Made by a program: the position numbers and the translations under genes. Shown piece after piece: positions 12,463 to 21,735 of a stretch of 64,000 nt of DNA (position 1 is the stretch's first letter; each line of letters begins with the position of its first letter). The stretch lies in contig NZ_SLWR01000001.1 of NCBI RefSeq assembly GCF_004345665.1, positions 620,001-684,000 of the forward strand, written 5' to 3'. This DNA is from Kribbella antiqua (lineage in GTDB: Bacteria > Actinomycetota > Actinomycetes > Propionibacteriales > Kribbellaceae). The notes beneath the pieces were generated by a model. It did not search any database, had not been told where the DNA came from, and saw nothing but the letters and a program-made list of their open reading frames with translations.

Positions 12463-13077
12463 TCAGCGGCTCTGCAGGGCGTCCAAGGCGACGGTCATCG
12501 CCGCCGCGACACGGAAGTCGAGGCGCTGGTCCTGGACGGTGATCCGGTAGCGGTCACGGACCGAGATCTTGCGCTCCACCGACAGTACCGGCTGGGAGGT
12601 TTCGTGGTCGGTGAAGTCGAAGTGGAAGATGAACGGCAGCGGGATCTCGCCGACGAACGGGACGAACTCCCAGACCCGGCGGACGATCGCGATCGTCGCG
12701 TTCCGCTCGGTGCCGGCCGCGTGCAGGTGGCCGCTCGACAGGAGCCAGCTGGACCGCAGCAGGCTCTTGCCGAACTCCTTCTTGAACCAGCCGATCGGCT
12801 GCGCGTTCGCGTCGAACACGTCGTACCCGGAGCCGAGGTCGATCGCCTTGCGGGCCTTGAACGAGAACACCGGCTGCGACTTGGTGTCGTCGGTGTAGAA
12901 GGTGACCTGCTCCTTGAACGCCATCCGCTTCTGCTGCGCGAACGCCAGCAGCGCGCCGTCGGAGCCGTCCGGGTTGGTGGCGATCAGTTCGTACTTGTTC
13001 GCCATGAGGGTGACCCGCTGCTTCATCGAGAACGCGGGCACGTACATGGGCGCTGGGCCTTCTGGTGGAACGGTCAT
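12463..13077 (-). CDS. LURP-one-related / tubby-like C-terminal-fold protein
   Basis: A 204-residue cytoplasmic protein without membrane segments. It has the repeated beta-strand pattern of LURP-one-related proteins (LANKYELIATNPDGS, KQRMAFKEQVTFYTDD, GSGYDVFDANAQPIGWFKKEF, HLHAAGTERNATIAIVRRVWEFVP, FHFDFTDHETSQPVLSVERKISVRDRY). These are twelve-stranded barrels related to phospholipid scramblases and tubby, with no established bacterial function. The ATG at 13077 is followed 13 bp upstream by the stop of the CobE-BluB gene, so it could be read at the end of the cobalamin operon. No catalytic residues can be assigned. Confidence 0.7.
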   Translation of the reverse strand: MTVPPEGPAPMYVPAFSMKQRVTLMANKYELIATNPDGSDGALLAFAQQKRMAFKEQVTFYTDDTKSQPVFSFKARKAIDLGSGYDVFDANAQPIGWFKKEFGKSLLRSSWLLSSGHLHAAGTERNATIAIVRRVWEFVPFVGEIPLPFIFHFDFTDHETSQPVLSVERKISVRDRYRITVQDQRLDFRVAAAMTVALDALQSR

Positions 13078-13090
13078 GCGGCCGAGTCTG

Positions 13091-14449
13091 TCACCCCGAC
13101 CAGGCCACTCCACACGCAAGTGCGCCCGCCCGTAGCCCTCGTGCCAGTCCGTCAGCCAACTCCGACTGCTCCACTACCTGTACGACGAGTTCCCCGACCC
13201 CCTGCAGCGCCAGGTCCCGGGCAACCTCCACACCGAGCTCTACCGCTTCCACCGGCGTACGCGCGGGCCGCCAGAGCACCCCGAAGTCTGCGACCGGCTT
13301 CTCAGACCCCAGGTGTACGACGAGTGCGTCCGCTAGCTCCAGGTGCTCTGCTGCGTCGCCGCCGACAACAACTCGCACACTCTGCTTGCCGACAGCTTGA
13401 GCCTTTCCAGCCTGTGCTGCGTCGTCCTCGATCGACGTGGTGCCTCGCTGACCCCACTGGTCGTAGTGAACGGCCCACGCGAGTGGTCGCCTCGCAGCCC
13501 AGCCTGATCGGACCAGCTCAGGTGCAGGTGCGAACTCCTCCACATGCCCGACGCAGAGGTAGCCGACGAGCTCTATGTGAGCCGGCAGGTCCAGTACCGC
13601 CGCGACTTCGCCCGGTTCGAAGAAGGAGACCCAGCCGACGCCGAGCCCTTCGGCGCGTGCGGCAAGCCAAAGGTTCTGGATGGCGATGGCCGCCGAGAAC
13701 CAGGTGGTCCGTGGATCGGCGTGACGGCCCAGCACGTGCCTTCCGCCGCGGCCGGGGTCGCAGGTCACCGCGATGTTCAGTGGAGTGTCGAGGATGGCCT
13801 CGATCTTCAGCCCGTCGAACGCCTGCCGCCGATCCGGCGGCAGCGACGCGGCGAAAGCGTCCCGCTGCGCAGTGGCGAGGTCATGCACCTTCCGCCGCGT
13901 GGCGATGTCGCGGATCAGCAGGAAATCCCACGGCTGGCTGAGCCCCACACTCGGTGCACGGTGTGCGGACTCCAGCACCCTCATCAGCAGGTCGTCGTCG
14001 ATCGGCCGGTCGATGAACCCCCTGCGCACGTCACGCCGCTCGGCGAGCACCCGGTGCACTACCTCCCGCTCTCCCGCTGTGTAAGCCGGTGCAGGCAGCC
14101 GACCGACGGCCGCGGTTGCATTCGGCGAGCGGCGCTTCGGCACCAGCAGATCAGCACCCGCCACGAGGACAGCTGCCTCCGCAACGCTTGGAGTGCCGGC
14201 CAGCAGCTCGACCTGCTCACTCGGAGTCGGCGCGGGCAGGCGGGACAACTCCGCAGCGGGCACAGTGTGGAGTTCGGCGCCTAAAGCGGCCGCCAGCCGT
14301 TGCAAGCCCGGCTCAGCCTCACGGCCTTCCACCGTGACCACCACGCGCACGACTCCCCCGCCCGCCTCGGCCACCACGTCGTTCACCAAGTCGCGCAGTT
14401 CCCGGTACGACGTGCCGCCGCGCAGCCCGACACCGACGACCAGATTCAC
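13091..14449 (-). CDS. bluB: CobE/CbiG-C domain fused to BluB (DMB synthase), with C-terminal extension
   Basis: A 452-residue protein with three parts. Residues 1-120 match the CobE/CbiG C-terminal domain (NLVVGVGLRGGTS at the start, LLAGTPSVAEAAVLVAGADLL). Residues about 123-335 are BluB, the O2-dependent flavoenzyme that fragments FMNH2 to 5,6-dimethylbenzimidazole, the lower ligand of B12. It shows RRDVRRGF, SAHRAPSVGLSQPWDF and GLGVGWVSFFEPGEV. Residues 340-452 are an unassigned tail; the stretch VELGVEVARDLALQGVGELVV faintly resembles CobT. The GTG at 14449 overlaps the cobB stop by 4 bp (GTGA). Both functional domains serve cobalamin synthesis, which supports a genuine fusion. Confidence 0.85.
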   Translation of the reverse strand: MNLVVGVGLRGGTSYRELRDLVNDVVAEAGGGVVRVVVTVEGREAEPGLQRLAAALGAELHTVPAAELSRLPAPTPSEQVELLAGTPSVAEAAVLVAGADLLVPKRRSPNATAAVGRLPAPAYTAGEREVVHRVLAERRDVRRGFIDRPIDDDLLMRVLESAHRAPSVGLSQPWDFLLIRDIATRRKVHDLATAQRDAFAASLPPDRRQAFDGLKIEAILDTPLNIAVTCDPGRGGRHVLGRHADPRTTWFSAAIAIQNLWLAARAEGLGVGWVSFFEPGEVAAVLDLPAHIELVGYLCVGHVEEFAPAPELVRSGWAARRPLAWAVHYDQWGQRGTTSIEDDAAQAGKAQAVGKQSVRVVVGGDAAEHLELADALVVHLGSEKPVADFGVLWRPARTPVEAVELGVEVARDLALQGVGELVVQVVEQSELADGLARGLRAGALACGVAWSG

Positions 14450-15798
14450 TTCTCCAGCCCCGCATGGACGCGCGCCGCGGCGACGAAGCGGGCTGGGACA
14501 TCCGGACTCGCCGTCCAGTGCAGATGCAGGTACGACGCATGCACACGCGGCTGAGCGATTCCTTCGACTCCACCCGGGAGGTGCCACGCCGGATTCACCT
14601 CAGCGGCGACGTCGACCGTCGTACGGTGGAACTCGTGGCCGCGGACGCGGCGGCCTTCGTCGAAGAACGCGGTCGTGGTCGCGGCGATCGCCGTACGGTA
14701 GCCCAGCGTCAGGCGGCTGGTCATCCGGGCCGTGGCGGGGAGTACGCCGGTCATCGGGTGGCCGTCGAGTTCGCGGCAGAGGTACAGCAGGCCGGCGCAT
14801 TCGGCGATGACGGGAAGACCTGCCGCCACCTCGGTCGCCACCTGACGGCGGAGCTCGACGTTCGCGGACAACGCCTCGGCGTGCAGTTCGGGGAAGCCGC
14901 CGCCGAGGTAGAGCGCCGAGGTTGCTTCCGGCAATGGATCGTGCAGGGGGTCGAAGGCAACGACATCGGCGCCGGCGGCAACGAGCAGCTCGGCCGTCTC
15001 GGTGTAGCGGAATGAGAAGACCGGGCCGCCGGCAACGGCAATCACGGGACGCCCTTCCTCGGCGGGCACCACTTCGGCGGCGGGATCCCAGGCCTCGGCA
15101 TCCAGCGGGGGCGCCGTCCGGGCGGCGGCAACGAAGGCTTCCAGGTCGACACCCTGGCGGACGAGTTCGGCGGCCGCTTCGACCGCAGCTGAGGCTTGTT
15201 CTCGCTGTTCGTCAGCCGGCACCAGACCTAGGTGCCGGCTGGGCACGCTGAGCCGCGTGTCCCGCCGCAGTACGCCGAGGACCGGTACGCCGGTCGGCGC
15301 GACACCGGCTCGCACCTCGGCCTCGTGGCGGTCCGAGCCGACCTTGTTCAGGATCACCCCGACGATCCGGACCTCGGTGTCGAAGGCAACGAAGCCGTTG
15401 ACCACGGCACCGACACTGCGACCGGCCGCAGAGGCGTCGACGACCAAGACGACGGGTGCCTTCAGCAACTTGGCGACATGCGCGGTGGAGGCGAAGCCTT
15501 CGGTGCCGAGGGCGCCGTCGTACAGGCCCATCACGCCTTCGATCACGGCCAGGTCCGCGCCTACTAAGCCGTGCGCGAACAGCGGCGCGACGCGTTCTTC
15601 GCCTTGCAGCATAGGGTCGAGGTTTCGCCCGGGCCGACCGGTCGCGACGGCGTGGAAGCCAGGGTCGATGTAGTCGGGGCCGACCTTGAAGCCCGCGACC
15701 GTGTGCCCGGCTTGCCGGAGCGCCGCCATCAGACCGACGGCGACAGTTGTCTTCCCGGCTCCCGAGGCGGGGGCGGCGATCACCAGGCGCGGGATCAC
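14446..15798 (-). CDS. cobB: Cobyrinic acid / hydrogenobyrinic acid a,c-diamide synthase
   Basis: A 450-residue CobB/CbiA. The N-terminal dethiobiotin-synthetase-like ATPase has the P-loop APASGAGKTTVAVGL at about residues 8-22 and the substrate loop KVGPDYIDPGFH. The C-terminal class I glutamine amidotransferase has the catalytic Cys in IAECAGLLYLCREL and a His in the closing segment HASYLHLHW. It amidates the a and c side chains using glutamine and ATP. The GTG at 15798 forms a GTGA junction with the cobO stop; a second GTG one codon upstream is possible. It belongs to the riboswitch-controlled operon. Confidence 0.95.
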   Translation of the reverse strand: MIPRLVIAAPASGAGKTTVAVGLMAALRQAGHTVAGFKVGPDYIDPGFHAVATGRPGRNLDPMLQGEERVAPLFAHGLVGADLAVIEGVMGLYDGALGTEGFASTAHVAKLLKAPVVLVVDASAAGRSVGAVVNGFVAFDTEVRIVGVILNKVGSDRHEAEVRAGVAPTGVPVLGVLRRDTRLSVPSRHLGLVPADEQREQASAAVEAAAELVRQGVDLEAFVAAARTAPPLDAEAWDPAAEVVPAEEGRPVIAVAGGPVFSFRYTETAELLVAAGADVVAFDPLHDPLPEATSALYLGGGFPELHAEALSANVELRRQVATEVAAGLPVIAECAGLLYLCRELDGHPMTGVLPATARMTSRLTLGYRTAIAATTTAFFDEGRRVRGHEFHRTTVDVAAEVNPAWHLPGGVEGIAQPRVHASYLHLHWTASPDVPARFVAAARVHAGLEK

Positions 15799-16409
15799 CA
15801 CTCGATGCCTTTCTGGCCCTTCTGGCCGGCGTCCATCGGGTGCTTGACCTTCGTCATCTCGGTGACCAGGTCGGCCGCGTCGAGCAGGCGCTGATCGGCG
15901 TTGCGGCCGGTGATGACGACGTACTGGTGACCTGGCCGATTCGTCAGTGTCTCGACTACCTCGTCGACGTCGACCCAGCCCCACTTCATCGGGTACGTGA
16001 ATTCGTCCAGCACATACAGGTCGTGTGTCTCGGCCTGGATCCGGCGCTGGATCTCGCGCCAGCCCTCGAGCGCGTCGGCGGCGTGGTCCTCCTCGGTGCC
16101 GGCCTTACGCGACCAGCTCCAGCCCTCGCCCATCTTGTGCCACTCGACCGGGCCGCCCTGACCTGTTGCCTCATGCAACTGCCCCAGGGCCTTGAAGGCG
16201 CTCTCCTCGCCGACCTTCCATTTCGCGCTTTTGACGAACTGGAAGACGCCGATGTTCCAGCCTTGGTTCCAGCCGCGCAGCGCCATCCCGAAGGCGGCCG
16301 TCGACTTCCCCTTCATCTCACCGGTGTGCACCATCAGCAACGGCCGGTTCCGCCGCTGCCGGGTGGTCAGTCCGTCCTGCGGGACGACGCTCGGCTGCCC
16401 CTTCGGCAT
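15795..16409 (-). CDS. cobO: Cob(I)yrinic acid a,c-diamide adenosyltransferase
   Basis: A 204-residue CobA/CobO/BtuR-type corrinoid adenosyltransferase. It carries a P-loop variant VHTGEMKGKSTAAFG at about residues 27-41 and the conserved segments FQFVKSAKWKVGEES and LYVLDEFTYPMKWGWV. It transfers the 5'-deoxyadenosyl group of ATP to Co(I) corrinoids to make the coenzyme form. The ATG shares one base with the stop of the chelatase-like gene upstream, and its own stop overlaps cobB by 4 bp, so the whole set is translationally coupled. Confidence 0.96.
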   Translation of the reverse strand: MPKGQPSVVPQDGLTTRQRRNRPLLMVHTGEMKGKSTAAFGMALRGWNQGWNIGVFQFVKSAKWKVGEESAFKALGQLHEATGQGGPVEWHKMGEGWSWSRKAGTEEDHAADALEGWREIQRRIQAETHDLYVLDEFTYPMKWGWVDVDEVVETLTNRPGHQYVVITGRNADQRLLDAADLVTEMTKVKHPMDAGQKGQKGIEW

Positions 16410-18433
16410 CAGGCCGCCCTCCGCTCGGTGACGGTCCGGATGAGGTTGCCAGCGGCAACTTCACCGAGATCGAGGTACTCCGCCGACATCGCAGCGGCGA
16501 GCTCCGCGGCCAGCCCCAGCCGGACTCCGCGGCGCGGTTCGCAGTCGACCACGACGGTGGCGATCCCTTGCTGGGCAAGCCATCCGGCCGCCTGCTTGGC
16601 GCGGGCGAACGCATTGTCCCCGTGGGTCGCGCGCCCGTCGGTGACGAGGACGAGGAGCGGCCGTCTCCGCGGGTCGCGGATCGCGGCGATCCGCAGTACT
16701 TCTGCTGTTTGGAGGAGACCCTCAGCGAGCGGGGTTCGACCACCGGTGGGGAGCGACTCGAGACGTCGTACGGCGGTCTCGACGCTGCCGGTAGGTGGCA
16801 ACGCGACCGTCGCGTCAGCGCCGGCGAAGGTGACGAGGCCGACGGTGTCGCGGCGCTGGTACGCGTCGAGGAGGAGCGAGACGATGGCCGTCTTCACCTC
16901 ACCCATCCGCTTCTTGGTGCCCATCGAGCCGGACGCGTCGACGCAGAACAGGACGAGGTTGCCTTCACGGCCTTCACGTACGGCGAGCCGCACGTCGGAC
17001 GTTCGTACGGCGAGACCCGGGCCCGAGCGACCTCGGCTGTGCTGATGAGGCGCGGCAGCCTTAAGAGTCGCCAGCAGGTGCGGGCGGCCCGAGCGCCCTG
17101 CGCGGGGACGGTCGCCGACGACCCGGCCGACATCGGTGATCGCTCGTGAGCGGCGGCCGGCGACGCCGGCACCGGCGGACTGGACGCTCAGCAGACGGGC
17201 CTTGTAGGGCTCGGAACTGCCGACGACCTCACCTTCGGGCACCGGGCGCTTGTTCGCCGACGCGTCGGGGCCGGCGGGGTCAGATTCGGCGCCGTCGGCG
17301 GGATCGGTCGAGCTGCCTGCGTCGGGACCGGCCGGATCGGCGCCATCCGGCTCATCGCCACCAGAATCGGGACTGCCCCCACCCGGTCCATCTGGGTCGT
17401 CATCGGGGTCCGGTGGAGGCGTGCTGTTGTTGATCGCCTCTTCGAGTTGCTCGTCGTCGAGGCCGGGCGCGTCGAACGGGTTGCGCCGACGGCGGTGTGG
17501 GAGGGCGAGCTTCGCGGCCGCGCGTACGTCGTCCACCTCGACGACCGTGCGACCGGACCAGGCCGCGTGCGCGACCGCCGTACGAGCGGTTACCAGGTCG
17601 GCGCGCATGCCGTCGACGTCGAAGGACGCGCAGATCTCGGCGATCTGGCGGAGCGCGGCGTCGGTGAGGATGACCTGAGACAGCAGGTCGCGCGCCTTCA
17701 CGATGCGCTCGGCCAGCTCGCGCTGCGCACCGTCGTACCGGCTGATGAAGCTCGAAGGGTCGGCCTCGTAGGCCAGGCGGGCGCGCATCACCTCGACGCG
17801 TACGGCGGGATCGCGGCTGGCGACGACGTCGACGGTGAGGCCGAAGCGGTCGAGCAACTGCGGCCGGAGCTCGCCCTCCTCCGGGTTCATGGTGCCGACG
17901 AGGACGAACCGGGCCGGGTGGGTGACGGAGACGCCGTCACGCTCGACGGTCGCGCGGCCCATCGCGGCGGCGTCGAGCAGGACGTCGACCAGGTGATCGT
18001 GCAGCAGGTTGACCTCGTCGACGTACAACAGGCCACGATGCGCGGCAGCCAGCAGACCTGGTTCGTACGCCGTGATGCCCTCGGCGAGGGCCTTTTCCAG
18101 GTGCAGTGAGCCAAGCACGCGGTCTTCGGTCGCACCCACCGGCAGCTCGACCAGCCGGGCGGGGCGGAGGGCACGCTCCCCGTGATGTGAGCCGTCGGGA
18201 CAGGTCGGCTCAGGGTCGTCGGGGTCGCAGGAGAAGCGGCACCCGGCTACGACGTCCACCGGCGGGAGGATCTCGGTCAGCGCCCGGACGGCGGTGGACT
18301 TAGCGGTGCCCTTCTCGCCGCGGATCAGGACGCCGCCGATGGCGGGTGAGATGGCGGACAGGATCAGCGCCAGTTGGAGATCTTCCATGCCGACCACGGC
18401 GGTGAACGGGAAGCTCTGAACTGCAGGCCGCAT
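16409..18433 (-). CDS. Cobalt/magnesium chelatase-like ChlI-ChlD fusion subunit
   Basis: A 674-residue protein. Residues about 1-330 form an AAA+ ATPase (Walker [11 protein letters not shown]; Walker B-like [10 protein letters not shown], followed by [14 protein letters not shown]). A Pro/Asp/Gly-rich linker at about 340-430 ([15 protein letters not shown]) leads to a C-terminal VWA domain with a MIDAS motif DASGSMG. In actinobacteria this protein is thought to power CobN in cobalt insertion instead of CobS/CobT. The ATG at 18433 is chosen because the upstream in-frame sequence is the riboswitch. It is the first gene after that riboswitch; cobN has its own riboswitch at 26.7 kb, consistent with joint regulation. 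Confidence 0.9.
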
Positions 18434-18453
18434 CGGCGGGGTCCCTTCGTCGA

Positions 18454-18471
18454 GCGGGTGTCCACGCCCGC
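18454..18471 (-). other. Hairpin between riboswitch and chelatase start, possible P13/expression platform
   Basis: On the minus strand, GCGGG and CCCGC close a loop containing CGTGGACA. An almost identical element (GGGGCGTGGACACCCC) occurs at the same relative place before cobN (26637-26652). GGAC in the loop can pair with GUCC in the conserved aptamer core, as in the L5-L13 kissing interaction of cobalamin riboswitches. The hairpin lies 20 bp before the ATG, suitable for masking translation initiation (inference). Confidence 0.5.
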
Positions 18472-18514
18472 TACGGCTGGTACGCCGTACCCACGGTGCT
18501 CGCAGGCCGACGGA

Positions 18515-18625
18515 CGACTGCAGATGTCCTGGCTTCCGGGCCGTAACAACTCCAGCTGGCCCGGTCACAGTGGCGGGACCGCCCCGGACTCACACCGGGT
18601 TCCTCCACAACCGTCCGCCCGATAA
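18515..18625 (-). promoter_or_regulatory. Cobalamin riboswitch upstream of chelatase-cobO-cobB-bluB operon
   Basis: The minus strand shows the diagnostic core at 18605-18567: GAGGAACCCGGTGTGAGTCC followed by GGGGCGGTCCCGCCACTGTG. The B12 box follows at 18537-18520 (GGAAGCCAGGACATCTGC). Order and spacing match the cobalamin (AdoCbl) riboswitch consensus. It lies about 85 nt from the ATG at 18433. Binding of coenzyme B12 is expected to reduce expression of the operon. Confidence 0.93.
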
Positions 18626-18777
18626 TTGCACACCTCGCCCCCGCCTTCAGCGACCAGGTTCACACCACCCACCCCGCCACCTGTGAACGCAGGGTGGCCG
18701 GCAACACGCGCCGAGGCGATGAGGGTGTGTATGACGGGTCTGCCGTTGGGGCGGTTGAGGGTGTTGACTGGGCTCCT
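18626..18777. other. Upstream region of the riboswitch transcript and the LAL gene
   Basis: This is the remainder of the 344-bp gap between divergent genes. The AT-rich CAATTATC on the minus strand (near 18626-18633) is the likely -10 region for the riboswitch transcript. On the plus strand I see no convincing promoter or ribosome site for the LAL regulator. Confidence 0.4.
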
Positions 18778-21735
18778 ATGGGGGGTCTTCGGGCCGATCA
18801 TCGATTTGCTGGGCGGGATGCCGAGCGGCGGCTGCTTGGCGATGTTGTGCGGGGTCCCGTGGGCGGGGTGCCGGGTGCGGTGGTCATTCATGGTGAGGCG
18901 GGCATCGGCAAGACCCGGCTGGCGCGTGAGGTCTGCGCGGATCCGCGGGTGAACGCACTCTGGGCCTCATGTGTGCACTTCGGTGGTGCTTCGGTTCCGT
19001 TCGCGCCGATCACCGGGATCCTGCAGGACTGGCTGGCCCGGGCCGATGCCGACGAGAGGGCCGAGATCCTCGCCGGGACAGACGGACTGGCCACCTTACT
19101 GCCCTCGCTCGGCAGCCTCAGCGGCGATGCGACTGGTGCGGGCGATACGACTCGGTTGCCGGTGCTGGTTGATCTGGTGGTGAACCGGATTGCGGTGCGG
19201 CGGCCGACAGTGGTGGTTGTCGATGACCTGCAGTGGGCCGATGTCGCGTCCCTCGATGTCTTGTCGTACCTGATTGCCGGATTCCGGGACCAGCCACTGG
19301 TACTGATCGCGACGTGCCGGACCGAGGAACGACCTGAGGGGCATCCGCTGCACGGCTGGCTGGCAGATATGCGGCGGATGCCGTTGTTCAGCGAAATCAC
19401 GTTGAATCCGTTGGATTTCGATGCGGTCAGTTGCCAGATCGAAGGGCTGCTCGGCAAACCACCTGACATCGAGCTCGTCAGCGAGGTGCTGGCCAGGTCG
19501 GACGGCAGCCCCTACTTGATCGAACTGATGGTCCGCGACCTCACGGGCACGGAGCATGCGCTCCCCATGACTGTCCCGGCCGCACTCCGCGAGGCCCTGC
19601 TCGCGGCCTGGCACAGCCTGTCCGAACAGGCCCGCCTGGTCACCAGAATCCTCGCCGTCGGCGGCCGCCCGACATCCTCCGCCGTACTGACTGAGGTCGC
19701 GTCCGCGGTCGGACTCGAGGGGGCCGTGATCGTCCCATGCCTGTCAGAGGCTCAGAACCGCGGCGTTGTCACCAGAGCAGGTGGCGACATCTGGTGGTTC
19801 CGTCACCCGCTACTGGCCGAGGTCCTGTACGACGGCCTGCCACCAGCCCAGGCGGCGGAGCTACACGCCGACTACATCCGCGTACTCGACGCGCCCGGCG
19901 TGACCGACGCGCCGGCCGCCGACCTGGCGGTCCACCACGAGAAGGCCGGGAACATCGACGCGACCTACCGCTGGTCGCTCGTCGCCGCGGACCAGGCGGC
20001 GGGTCTGCGGGCTCCGGCCGAGGAAGCAATCCAGCTCCGCCGAGCTTGTGCTCTCTGGGAGACGGTGTCACCGGCTGTCCGCGGAACGCGAGAGGAGAGG
20101 ATAGACCTGCTGCGACGGACGGCGGCAGTCGGTCTCAGGGCCGGCTGGCCCGACATGGTGATGACGCTCCTCACGCAGGCGCTGAGTCTGGTCGACAGGC
20201 AGCAGGAACCGCTGCTGGCCTGCGATCTGCTCGTCACGAGGGCGGACTCCCGCTGGCAATTGACGTCGCCGGGCATTGCTGACGTCGCCGAGATCCTCGA
20301 GGCGATCGCGCTGACCGAGGATTTCCCCGATGCTGCGGAGCGCGCCGTCGCGTTCGCCGAGCTTGCTGAGCTCGAGTCGCTGCACGGCCTGCCGGAGGAC
20401 TCGGTCCACGCTGAGGAGGCCGTCCGGATTGCACGCAGGTCCGGCTCGAAGCAGGCCCTCGGGCGAGCTCTCGGAGCACGCGCGGCCGTATCGGACTATC
20501 CGGCGCCCCTGGCTTCGCTCGCCGACGTGGAATTGTCGGAGCAGTTGGCGCGGTCGTGTGGAGATGTGGACACCGCCACGAACGCCGCCATCTGGCGCTT
20601 CAACGCCCTCCACGCGCTCGGCCGGCGAGCCGACGCCGTGGACGTCACCCACGCGGCTTACGACGACGCCGTCACCGCCGGCGCGGGCGCCTGGGCCTAC
20701 TTCCTCGCCTTCCAGACCGCCAGTGAGCTGATCGACCTCGGCCGCTGGGAGGAGTGCCGCGCGATACTGCGGTCGGCGTTGGCCGCACGCTGCACCGGCA
20801 TCCCAGGAGCAGGTGTCAGGCTGACCGCAAGCCTGCTGGCCGTGAGGTCCGGACGGACGGAGGAGGCACGGCAGCACTTCGACCGGGCGTTGGAATTGAT
20901 CTCCCACGACTTCAACCCGCTTCGTCCAGTCGTGACCGGCGCGGGCATCGAGCTGCTGATCGCCGAAGGCAGAGCCGCGGACGCCATGACCTGGGCCCGC
21001 CCACGTCTGCTCGTTCCGGATCATCCTGAGGCGGAAGACGATGGGGTGCTCCCGGTCTACGCCCGGGCAGCGGCCGAGACCGCCGGTTCCGCTCGGGACA
21101 GGGGTGATGAGGGCGTCGCGTCCGCGACAGTGGAAACGGTCGAGAAAGTCATCGGCGAATGGCCATGGGAGCCTTTCGTCCACGCCTTGGGTGGCATGGA
21201 CGTGCAAGCCATGAATCGGTCGCGCCTCGCGGCCGAGCTCGCCCGCTGCCGGAATGCTCCCGATCAAACCTCGCACTGGCACCGCGCCGTCGAAGCCTGC
21301 GGTGTCGCTGGAAATCGCTGGGACCAGGCGGTTGCCCAGTGGCGCTGCGCTGAGGCAGGCCTGACCGGCGGCTGGACCCCGTCGAAAGCGCGCGATCTCC
21401 TGCGTAAGGCGCATCACTGCGCGGTCGAACTCGGTGCGCGGCCCTTGCAGAACGATGTGGAATCGCTGGCCCGGCGGGCGAAGATCGATCTCCGTACGCC
21501 AATTCCGGTCGCTCCGGTGGCCGACGACCCTCGGCTGGCGGCACTCACCGACCGCGAGCGGGAGGTGCTGGCTTTCCTGGTGGCGGGCCGGTCCAACGGT
21601 GAGATCGCGAAGGAGCTCTTCATCAGTGACAAGACGGTCAGCGTCCATGTCTCGAACATCCTTCGGAAGACCGGCACCACGAGCCGGGTGGCGGCCGCCG
21701 CCCTGGCCGAACGGCGGCTGCTTCCGGATCAGTGA
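18778..21735 (+). CDS. LAL-type LuxR-family regulator with AAA ATPase and TPR-like repeats
   Basis: A 985-residue regulator starting at MGGLRADHRFAGRDAERRLL, the usual beginning of this family; an earlier in-frame GTG at 18694 would add 28 unusual residues. Walker A is HGEAGIGKTRL at about residues 38-48 and Walker B is VVVVDDLQWAD. A long helical, TPR-like middle (about 300-850) follows. The C-terminus has a LuxR HTH (LTDREREVLAFLVAGRSNGEIAKEL, DKTVSVHVSNIL). LALs switch on large pathways in response to a small ligand. It is divergent from the cobalamin operon and convergent with a small exported-protein gene; its targets are not evident. Confidence 0.9.
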   Translation: MGGLRADHRFAGRDAERRLLGDVVRGPVGGVPGAVVIHGEAGIGKTRLAREVCADPRVNALWASCVHFGGASVPFAPITGILQDWLARADADERAEILAGTDGLATLLPSLGSLSGDATGAGDTTRLPVLVDLVVNRIAVRRPTVVVVDDLQWADVASLDVLSYLIAGFRDQPLVLIATCRTEERPEGHPLHGWLADMRRMPLFSEITLNPLDFDAVSCQIEGLLGKPPDIELVSEVLARSDGSPYLIELMVRDLTGTEHALPMTVPAALREALLAAWHSLSEQARLVTRILAVGGRPTSSAVLTEVASAVGLEGAVIVPCLSEAQNRGVVTRAGGDIWWFRHPLLAEVLYDGLPPAQAAELHADYIRVLDAPGVTDAPAADLAVHHEKAGNIDATYRWSLVAADQAAGLRAPAEEAIQLRRACALWETVSPAVRGTREERIDLLRRTAAVGLRAGWPDMVMTLLTQALSLVDRQQEPLLACDLLVTRADSRWQLTSPGIADVAEILEAIALTEDFPDAAERAVAFAELAELESLHGLPEDSVHAEEAVRIARRSGSKQALGRALGARAAVSDYPAPLASLADVELSEQLARSCGDVDTATNAAIWRFNALHALGRRADAVDVTHAAYDDAVTAGAGAWAYFLAFQTASELIDLGRWEECRAILRSALAARCTGIPGAGVRLTASLLAVRSGRTEEARQHFDRALELISHDFNPLRPVVTGAGIELLIAEGRAADAMTWARPRLLVPDHPEAEDDGVLPVYARAAAETAGSARDRGDEGVASATVETVEKVIGEWPWEPFVHALGGMDVQAMNRSRLAAELARCRNAPDQTSHWHRAVEACGVAGNRWDQAVAQWRCAEAGLTGGWTPSKARDLLRKAHHCAVELGARPLQNDVESLARRAKIDLRTPIPVAPVADDPRLAALTDREREVLAFLVAGRSNGEIAKELFISDKTVSVHVSNILRKTGTTSRVAAAALAERRLLPDQ

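Follow-up and report, generated by a model that had tools for sequence, protein, structure and literature searches.

A probable Kribbella-specific rebuild of the actinobacterial BluB–CobT fusion, with a reduced CobT domain and CobE in front

What kind of protein is encoded at positions 13091–14449 of this DNA, and what is the tail that follows its two recognizable domains? The window—the whole stretch of 64,000 nucleotides of Kribbella antiqua that was analysed—had been predicted to hold here a single protein with a CobE-like front, a BluB flavin destructase, and a tail of about 110 residues. The reading frame and the domain matches bear out a single protein of 452 residues with these three parts. 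The coordinates are also correct, and the gene reads on the minus strand, from 14449 to 13091. We put a probability of about 0.82 on the reading that, in Kribbella alone, the actinobacterial BluB–CobT fusion was rebuilt into this gene: the CobT part would be a selected, noncatalytic relic, and a CobE domain would have been added in front. The locus features the following elements:

13091–14449, minus strand: gene for CobE, BluB, and the putative reduced CobT; 452 residues in one unbroken frame with a GTG start at 14449
14096–14449, minus strand: CobE/CbiG_C domain, residues ~1–118 (PF01890, 85.2 bits; PDB 2w6k/2w6l)
13445–14083, minus strand: BluB (5,6-dimethylbenzimidazole synthase) domain, residues ~123–335 (TIGR02476, 258 bits; PDB 2isj)
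13367–13450, minus strand: linker, residues 334–361, overlapping the end of the BluB match; its profile starts with HHExWGxRGxPG
13094–13366, minus strand: putative reduced CobT-like domain, residues 362–452, predicted alpha/beta fold, without the GEGxGA motif
13199–13246, minus strand: AVELGVEVARDLALQG, the apparent equivalent of the CobT helix preceding the GDMGIANTT loop
14446–15984, minus strand: cobB/cbiA, cobyrinate a,c-diamide synthase, directly upstream of the fusion (limits of the open reading frame; translation probably starts near 15.8 kb)
15795–16409, minus strand: cobO, corrinoid adenosyltransferase
16409–18568, minus strand: ChlI/ChlD-type AAA and VWA chelatase component (limits of the open reading frame)

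The minus-strand frame of 13091–14449 runs through 452 residues without a stop, and the plus-strand frame of the same interval contains stops. The stop of cobB overlaps the GTG start of the fusion gene by four bases (gtga). Directly downstream, the frame at 12463–13119 on the minus strand is without a Pfam match, yet it neighbours the fusion in 35 of the 37 Kribbella loci. On the plus strand, at 18694–21735, a large AAA/LuxR-type regulator of 1013 residues with Pfam AAA_16 and GerE is encoded divergently from the adjoining cobalamin operon.

The calls of CobE and BluB in the original prediction were right, as judged by matches in Pfam, NCBIfam, and the PDB. Residues 3–115 match CbiG_C (Pfam PF01890) at 85.2 bits, the cut-off being 27, and residues 3–118 match the CobE structures 2w6k and 2w6l. 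The genome has no match to CbiG_N (PF11760) in a search that is positive in 7 of 14 control genomes; hence, the front domain corresponds to CobE. The Nitroreductase family of Pfam covers residues 136–302. The BluB equivalog TIGR02476 of NCBIfam scores 258 bits, with a cut-off of 150, and is matched over profile positions 3–205 of 205. In addition, the BluB part aligns with PDB 2isj at 204 bits, over chain residues 15–230 of 230. From what is known of its family, the domain presumably makes 5,6-dimethylbenzimidazole (DMB) from reduced FMN.

In each of 37 Kribbella genomes, CbiG_C is present as a single copy, which lies in the fusion gene. Outside Kribbella, it occurs in 3 of 21 relatives, always at loci other than that of BluB. 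A profile of the Kribbella CobE gives no match above 3 bits in the BluB frames of the loci of the order, except in Kribbella L159, and nothing above 4 bits in the BluB frames of 20 longer BluB–CobT loci; at the 29 closest loci, it gives four matches only, all in non-BluB frames and at 4.5–5.5 bits. These three sets of loci overlap. The extensions upstream of BluB in 20 fusion frames appear, by eye, unlike real protein or of low complexity, and Pfam finds nothing in the upstream extensions of the six BluB–CobT frames scanned. Because CbiG_C elsewhere sits apart from BluB and the BluB–CobT loci show no CobE, the CobE–BluB fusion looks specific to Kribbella within the loci sampled. Four BluB–CobT frames of other actinomycetes (L205, L206, L208, and L215) carry several hundred Ala/Pro/Glu-rich low-complexity residues ahead of BluB. 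This front may be the N-terminal part of "unknown" kind that is reported for Streptomyces griseus in excerpts of PMC4657239.

A profile search of 58 related genomes finds the protein in K. antiqua and in all 36 other Kribbella genomes among them, and a 38th Kribbella genome (G450/L159) also carries all three parts. The parts are intact in 37 of these 38 genomes; in G015/L036, the gene runs off its contig inside the tail. Neither junction is broken in the 38 genomes—a frameshift or a stop between the domains, or homologues that are always separate genes, had been the conceivable objections to a true fusion. Among the loci examined, the architecture of CobE, BluB, and tail is confined to Kribbella; other members of the Propionibacteriales carry full BluB–CobT fusions or BluB without CobT. 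The record NZ_JAAGLV010000006.1 (L069), named Streptomyces sp. SID13031, has a Kribbella-type gene and is probably a misnamed Kribbella.

In a comparison of 18 disjoint pairs, dN/dS is lowest in BluB (0.08) and reaches 0.24 in the tail core, 0.25 in CobE, and 0.29 in the linker. In the same pairs, the tail core differs per codon by 0.144, 0.117, and 0.376 at positions 1 to 3, the third positions varying 2.6–3.2 times more than the first or second. Invariant columns make up 16 of the 86 of the tail core; the length of the linker varies among Kribbella proteins. The dN/dS values and the differences between codon positions establish the tail as real coding sequence under purifying selection, as strong as on CobE and weaker than on BluB.

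The tail (residues 336–452) has no Pfam or NCBIfam match beyond noise, be it in the K. antiqua protein or in the set of 36 tails, and neither PF02277 nor TIGR03160 (CobT/DBI_PRT) is listed for any of them. Scattered best hits with E-values of at least 0.03, for example, Nuc_deoxyrib_tr in 6 of 36 tails, were rejected as assignments to a known family. The tail profile matches no PDB sequence. An AlphaFold model computed from 36 tails reaches a pLDDT of 84.3 and a pTM of 0.76, and a second one, headed by the divergent member L035, reaches 80.6 and 0.70. For the first model, Foldseek returns a best E-value of 0.022, to phosphate acetyl/butyryl transferase, and CobT and ArsAB chains occupy much of the list. 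In VIA-align, the first 19 of the 50 rows listed for the first model are CobT/ArsAB chains, led by 4hdk_B with a Z of 8.9 and an rmsd of 2.2 over 102 residues—chain B of 4hdk is ArsB—and the next unrelated row is FtsZ with a Z of 7.3. For the second model, such chains fill the top 10 of 50, with a best Z of 8.8 and an rmsd of 2.5 over 108 residues, followed by Cam1 as the next unrelated row with a Z of 7.8; according to the tool's own note, a Z of 8–9 barely exceeds what unrelated models reach. The margins over unrelated folds are modest and, taken alone, provide only a lead. Still, CobT/ArsAB is the best structural match of both models by a small margin, and the tail is predicted to have the CobT-core fold. 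The earlier description of the tail as having no assigned fold is, hence, accurate for the family databases, which are indeed silent, but not for the predicted structure, which matches CobT/ArsAB best.

The kinship of the tail was followed through the closest relatives of its BluB. The search for BluB covered 394 genomes of the class with four candidates scored per genome, and the best 29 loci besides that of K. antiqua were retained. In all 29 of these closest non-Kribbella loci, BluB and CobT lie in one frame. The tail profile matches the linker behind BluB in 28 of the 29—HHExWGxRGxPG is common to the fusions—and the CobT part in 27, near CobT position 133–149. At this CobT helix, L132 has AVETGIELARDMVAAG and Kribbella has AVELGVEVARDLALQG. 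The 20 longer loci, mostly from the same genomes, again feature the BluB–CobT architecture, with CobT in 20 of 20, and Pfam DBI_PRT (CobT) follows the nitroreductase domain in all six fusions scanned.

In profile–profile comparisons, the tail including its linker matches fused CobT with a probability of 96–98%. Without the linker, the tail core scores 37.0 (probability 69%) against 36 fused CobT domains and 38.0 (73%) against 22 nearer fused CobTs. The match to 26 standalone CobTs, 25 of which are from Kribbella, is weak (30.4; 30%), and 14 divergent fusions of the order give no match (16.6; 0.5%). The background lies lower: 200 column shuffles of the tail core reach at most 23.7 and 5.1%; the reversed core reaches 21.2; and control alignments of CobB, CobO, chelatase, BluB, CobE, and CysG score 11.9–24.4, with probabilities of at most 3.8%. 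At the first strand, the hhalign path pairs a CobT helix with a tail strand, contrary to the model; because of this disagreement, residues in the first third of the tail core can be assigned to CobT positions only with uncertainty. As judged by the homology of linker and core, BluB appears to be followed in frame by a CobT-derived domain. The CobT-like stretch VELGVEVARDLALQGVGELVV occurs in the tail as originally quoted, and the faint likeness to CobT that had been noticed there seems to be one of descent: fold, profile, and gene context agree.

Run against the class, the tail profile finds 4 of 394 genomes at E-values below 0.001, namely K. antiqua and three weak ones. The match at L049 is attributed to chance, the opposite strand of its very long frame reading, by eye, like polynucleotide phosphorylase; similar matches in long frames at L050 and L051 are taken for chance as well. 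Beyond the class, a match at L072, from an alphaproteobacterial MAG, falls in a frame of 1336 residues opposite a long gene that is relaxase-like by eye; this match was set aside as well.

Compared with full CobT, the tail is markedly reduced. Counted from the common HHxxxWG point, the tails span 124–159 residues and the fused CobT parts at least 336 (median 373). The GEGxGA motif is present in 35 of 36 fused CobTs and in 30 of 30 of the standalone set, and in none of the 36 tails. We take the GEGxGA segment to be the site of the catalytic base E317 of Salmonella CobT; E174 and E317 of CobT are both named as mutated in PDB titles. GDMGxxNT is found in 0 of 36 tails and 20 of 36 fused CobTs, and ADHGV in 0 of 36 and 9 of 36; these absences weigh little because the patterns are too strict, missing 16 and 27 of the 36 fusions. 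The standalone set was chosen with a GDMGxxNT-type pattern, which renders its 30 of 30 for GDMGxxNT meaningless. The structural matches stop near CobT residue 248–268 of ~330–350 and leave more than 100 earlier residues unaligned, which suggests that the C-terminal quarter and, in addition, inner stretches are missing. With its short length and without GEGxGA, the tail does not appear to be an entire CobT that could activate DMB, and because the C-terminal region with this motif is missing from the tails, they are unlikely to add a third catalytic activity. The suggestion that the tail would join a third activity to the protein is, thus, not upheld: what stands here is a shortened CobT that lacks the C-terminal catalytic motif, and a complete CobT is encoded elsewhere in the genome.

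All 37 Kribbella genomes have this separate, complete CobT with a score above the curated cut-off; in K. antiqua, it lies at G000:C2:58164–59156. In a CobT tree with 9 of the 26 extracted Kribbella rows, it branches immediately outside a clade (85/94) that comprises 32 CobTs, 22 of them fused and 10 standalone. In a BluB tree with 9 of 36 Kribbella rows, Kribbella groups with the 22 nearer fused BluBs (91/75, not starred), beside the fused G207 (89/95); the 14 divergent fusions and 23 CobT-less BluBs branch in other parts of the tree. The Kribbella BluB is, with moderate confidence, placed inside the group of fused BluBs. Elsewhere in the order, the BluBs of G546 and G494 (L157/L161), genomes of different families, are nearly identical (branches 0.006 and 0), which reflects either recent transfer or contamination.

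The gene order is in keeping with the BluB tree. In Kribbella, CobB lies upstream of the fusion at all 37 loci; among the 22 non-Kribbella loci (stretches of up to 6.9 kb), it does so at 5. CysG lies downstream of BluB–CobT in 20 of 22 non-Kribbella loci—it is absent from the available stretches of L132 and L133—and downstream of the separate Kribbella CobT in all 26 loci examined (of 37 genomes). Near the Kribbella fusion, within flanks of 1.5 kb or little more, it occurs in 0 of 37. G046 (L115 and L165), a member of the same order, has an unfused CobT with CysG downstream and a BluB of another clade. As this genome features CobT–CysG without the fusion, the separate Kribbella CobT may either have been released from the fusion by duplication or have been there before.

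Several other readings of the tail have to be weighed against that of a selected, noncatalytic relic. In high-G+C DNA, either strand can hold long open frames, and the tail frame might be unreal, owing its existence to a gene on the opposite strand or to a sequencing error, but the conservation of 36 full tails as protein and the in-frame variation of third positions refute this. The CobT likeness could also come from a common fold only, the tail being an unrelated alpha/beta (Rossmann-like) domain: FtsZ and Cam1 lie within 1–1.6 Z units of the best row, and the Foldseek E-values exceed 0.02. We consider this improbable given that linker and CobT helix match in order and at a near-constant CobT position in 27 of 29 loci, that none of 200 shuffles or six control families reaches the profile score, and that the tail occupies the place of CobT in the closest BluB relatives.

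If CobT descent is granted, the tail might still be either dead or active. A decaying remnant with no function left would agree with the truncation of the domain, which the separate CobT makes redundant, and with the variable length of the linker. There is little likelihood of such decay, however, in a frame that is kept in all complete genomes, has a dN/dS the same as that of the CobE domain, holds its 16 invariant core columns, and yields a well-predicted fold (pLDDT 84 and 81). Conversely, an active minimal NaMN:DMB phosphoribosyltransferase would let the protein both make and activate DMB in the manner of BluB/CobT2, for which both steps are documented in excerpts of PMC4657239, and the CobT descent of the tail would fit. 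The odds of this are very low: GEGxGA is found in none of the tails, their 124–159 residues stand against at least 336 in the fusions, and an intact CobT is present elsewhere in 37 of 37 genomes.

For the rebuilt fusion with its selected, noncatalytic CobT relic, the following history is proposed. In the ancestor, cobB would have been followed by a BluB–CobT fusion. On the way to Kribbella, this fusion would have acquired a CobE (CbiG_C) domain at its front, and the CobT part would have shrunk from ~340 to ~90 residues; a compact core would have been retained, and the C-terminal quarter with GEGxGA, plus stretches inside the large domain, would have gone. The BluB domain would make DMB from reduced FMN, and the separate, intact CobT would activate it. 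Purifying selection maintains the relic, which would most likely be an inactive CobT relative with a structural or docking function: it may stabilise the BluB part or tether the complex to the neighbourhood of the separate CobT. That the tail is under this selection makes such a role probable. The data show the gene structure, the identities of the domains, their conservation, the homology of linker and core to BluB–CobT, the absence of GEGxGA, and the selection; the sequence of steps in this history, the choice of inner CobT segments that disappeared, the loss of activity, the role of the relic, and any coupling to CobE are inferences.

For metabolite channelling, the locus resembles a natural experiment: a selected core outlives the reduction of the fused second-step enzyme, and the separate CobT presumably does, or took over, the second step. 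In addition, the CobE part sets a poorly understood protein of the ring pathway physically beside lower-ligand synthesis. That lower-ligand supply might be coupled to corrin flux through this link, as proposed in the original prediction, is an idea. ArsB is a CobT relative that works beside a partner in a division of labour, and the pairing of ArsA and ArsB appears in PDB entries. By analogy, the shrunken CobT might be a pseudoenzyme that pairs with the separate CobT like ArsB with ArsA and passes on DMB inside a CobE–BluB–CobT complex, thereby tying lower-ligand supply to a CobE-bound corrin-ring intermediate; we regard this proposal as speculative and rather doubtful.

The BluB–CobT fusion as such is already known. 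Measurements on BluB/CobT2 of Propionibacterium freudenreichii demonstrated both activities along with efficient channelling, and BluB/CobT is called rather widespread among Actinobacteria (excerpts of PMC4657239); bluB/cobT fusion sequences in Actinobacteria are also noted in a review (excerpts of PMC8123684). In the literature on BluB–CobT fusions, on CobE/CbiG with BluB, and on Kribbella cobalamin, mostly at the level of abstracts, no description of the Kribbella gene was found. What is new is the reduced CobT part, with CobE in front.

Compared with CobE (2w6k and 2w6l) and CbiG_C, the Kribbella CobE is fused to BluB and is not free or joined to CbiG_N. The whole BluB domain aligns with 2isj, which is a single-domain protein. 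Like the CobT/ArsAB phosphoribosyltransferases (1l4b, 1j33, and 4hdk), the Kribbella tail is predicted to have the core fold and the helix before the catalytic loop; unlike them, it has ~90 instead of 330–350 residues and is without the C-terminal catalytic region. The closest counterparts in architecture are P. freudenreichii BluB/CobT2 and the other actinobacterial fusions, with which Kribbella shares BluB, the linker, what appears to be a CobT-derived domain, and, putatively, DMB synthesis; as in part of the actinobacterial BluB–CobT relatives (5 of 22 loci), the fusion lies behind cobB. Unlike BluB/CobT2, the Kribbella protein features CobE in front, about a quarter of CobT, and no GEGxGA; activation of DMB would have to come from the separate CobT.
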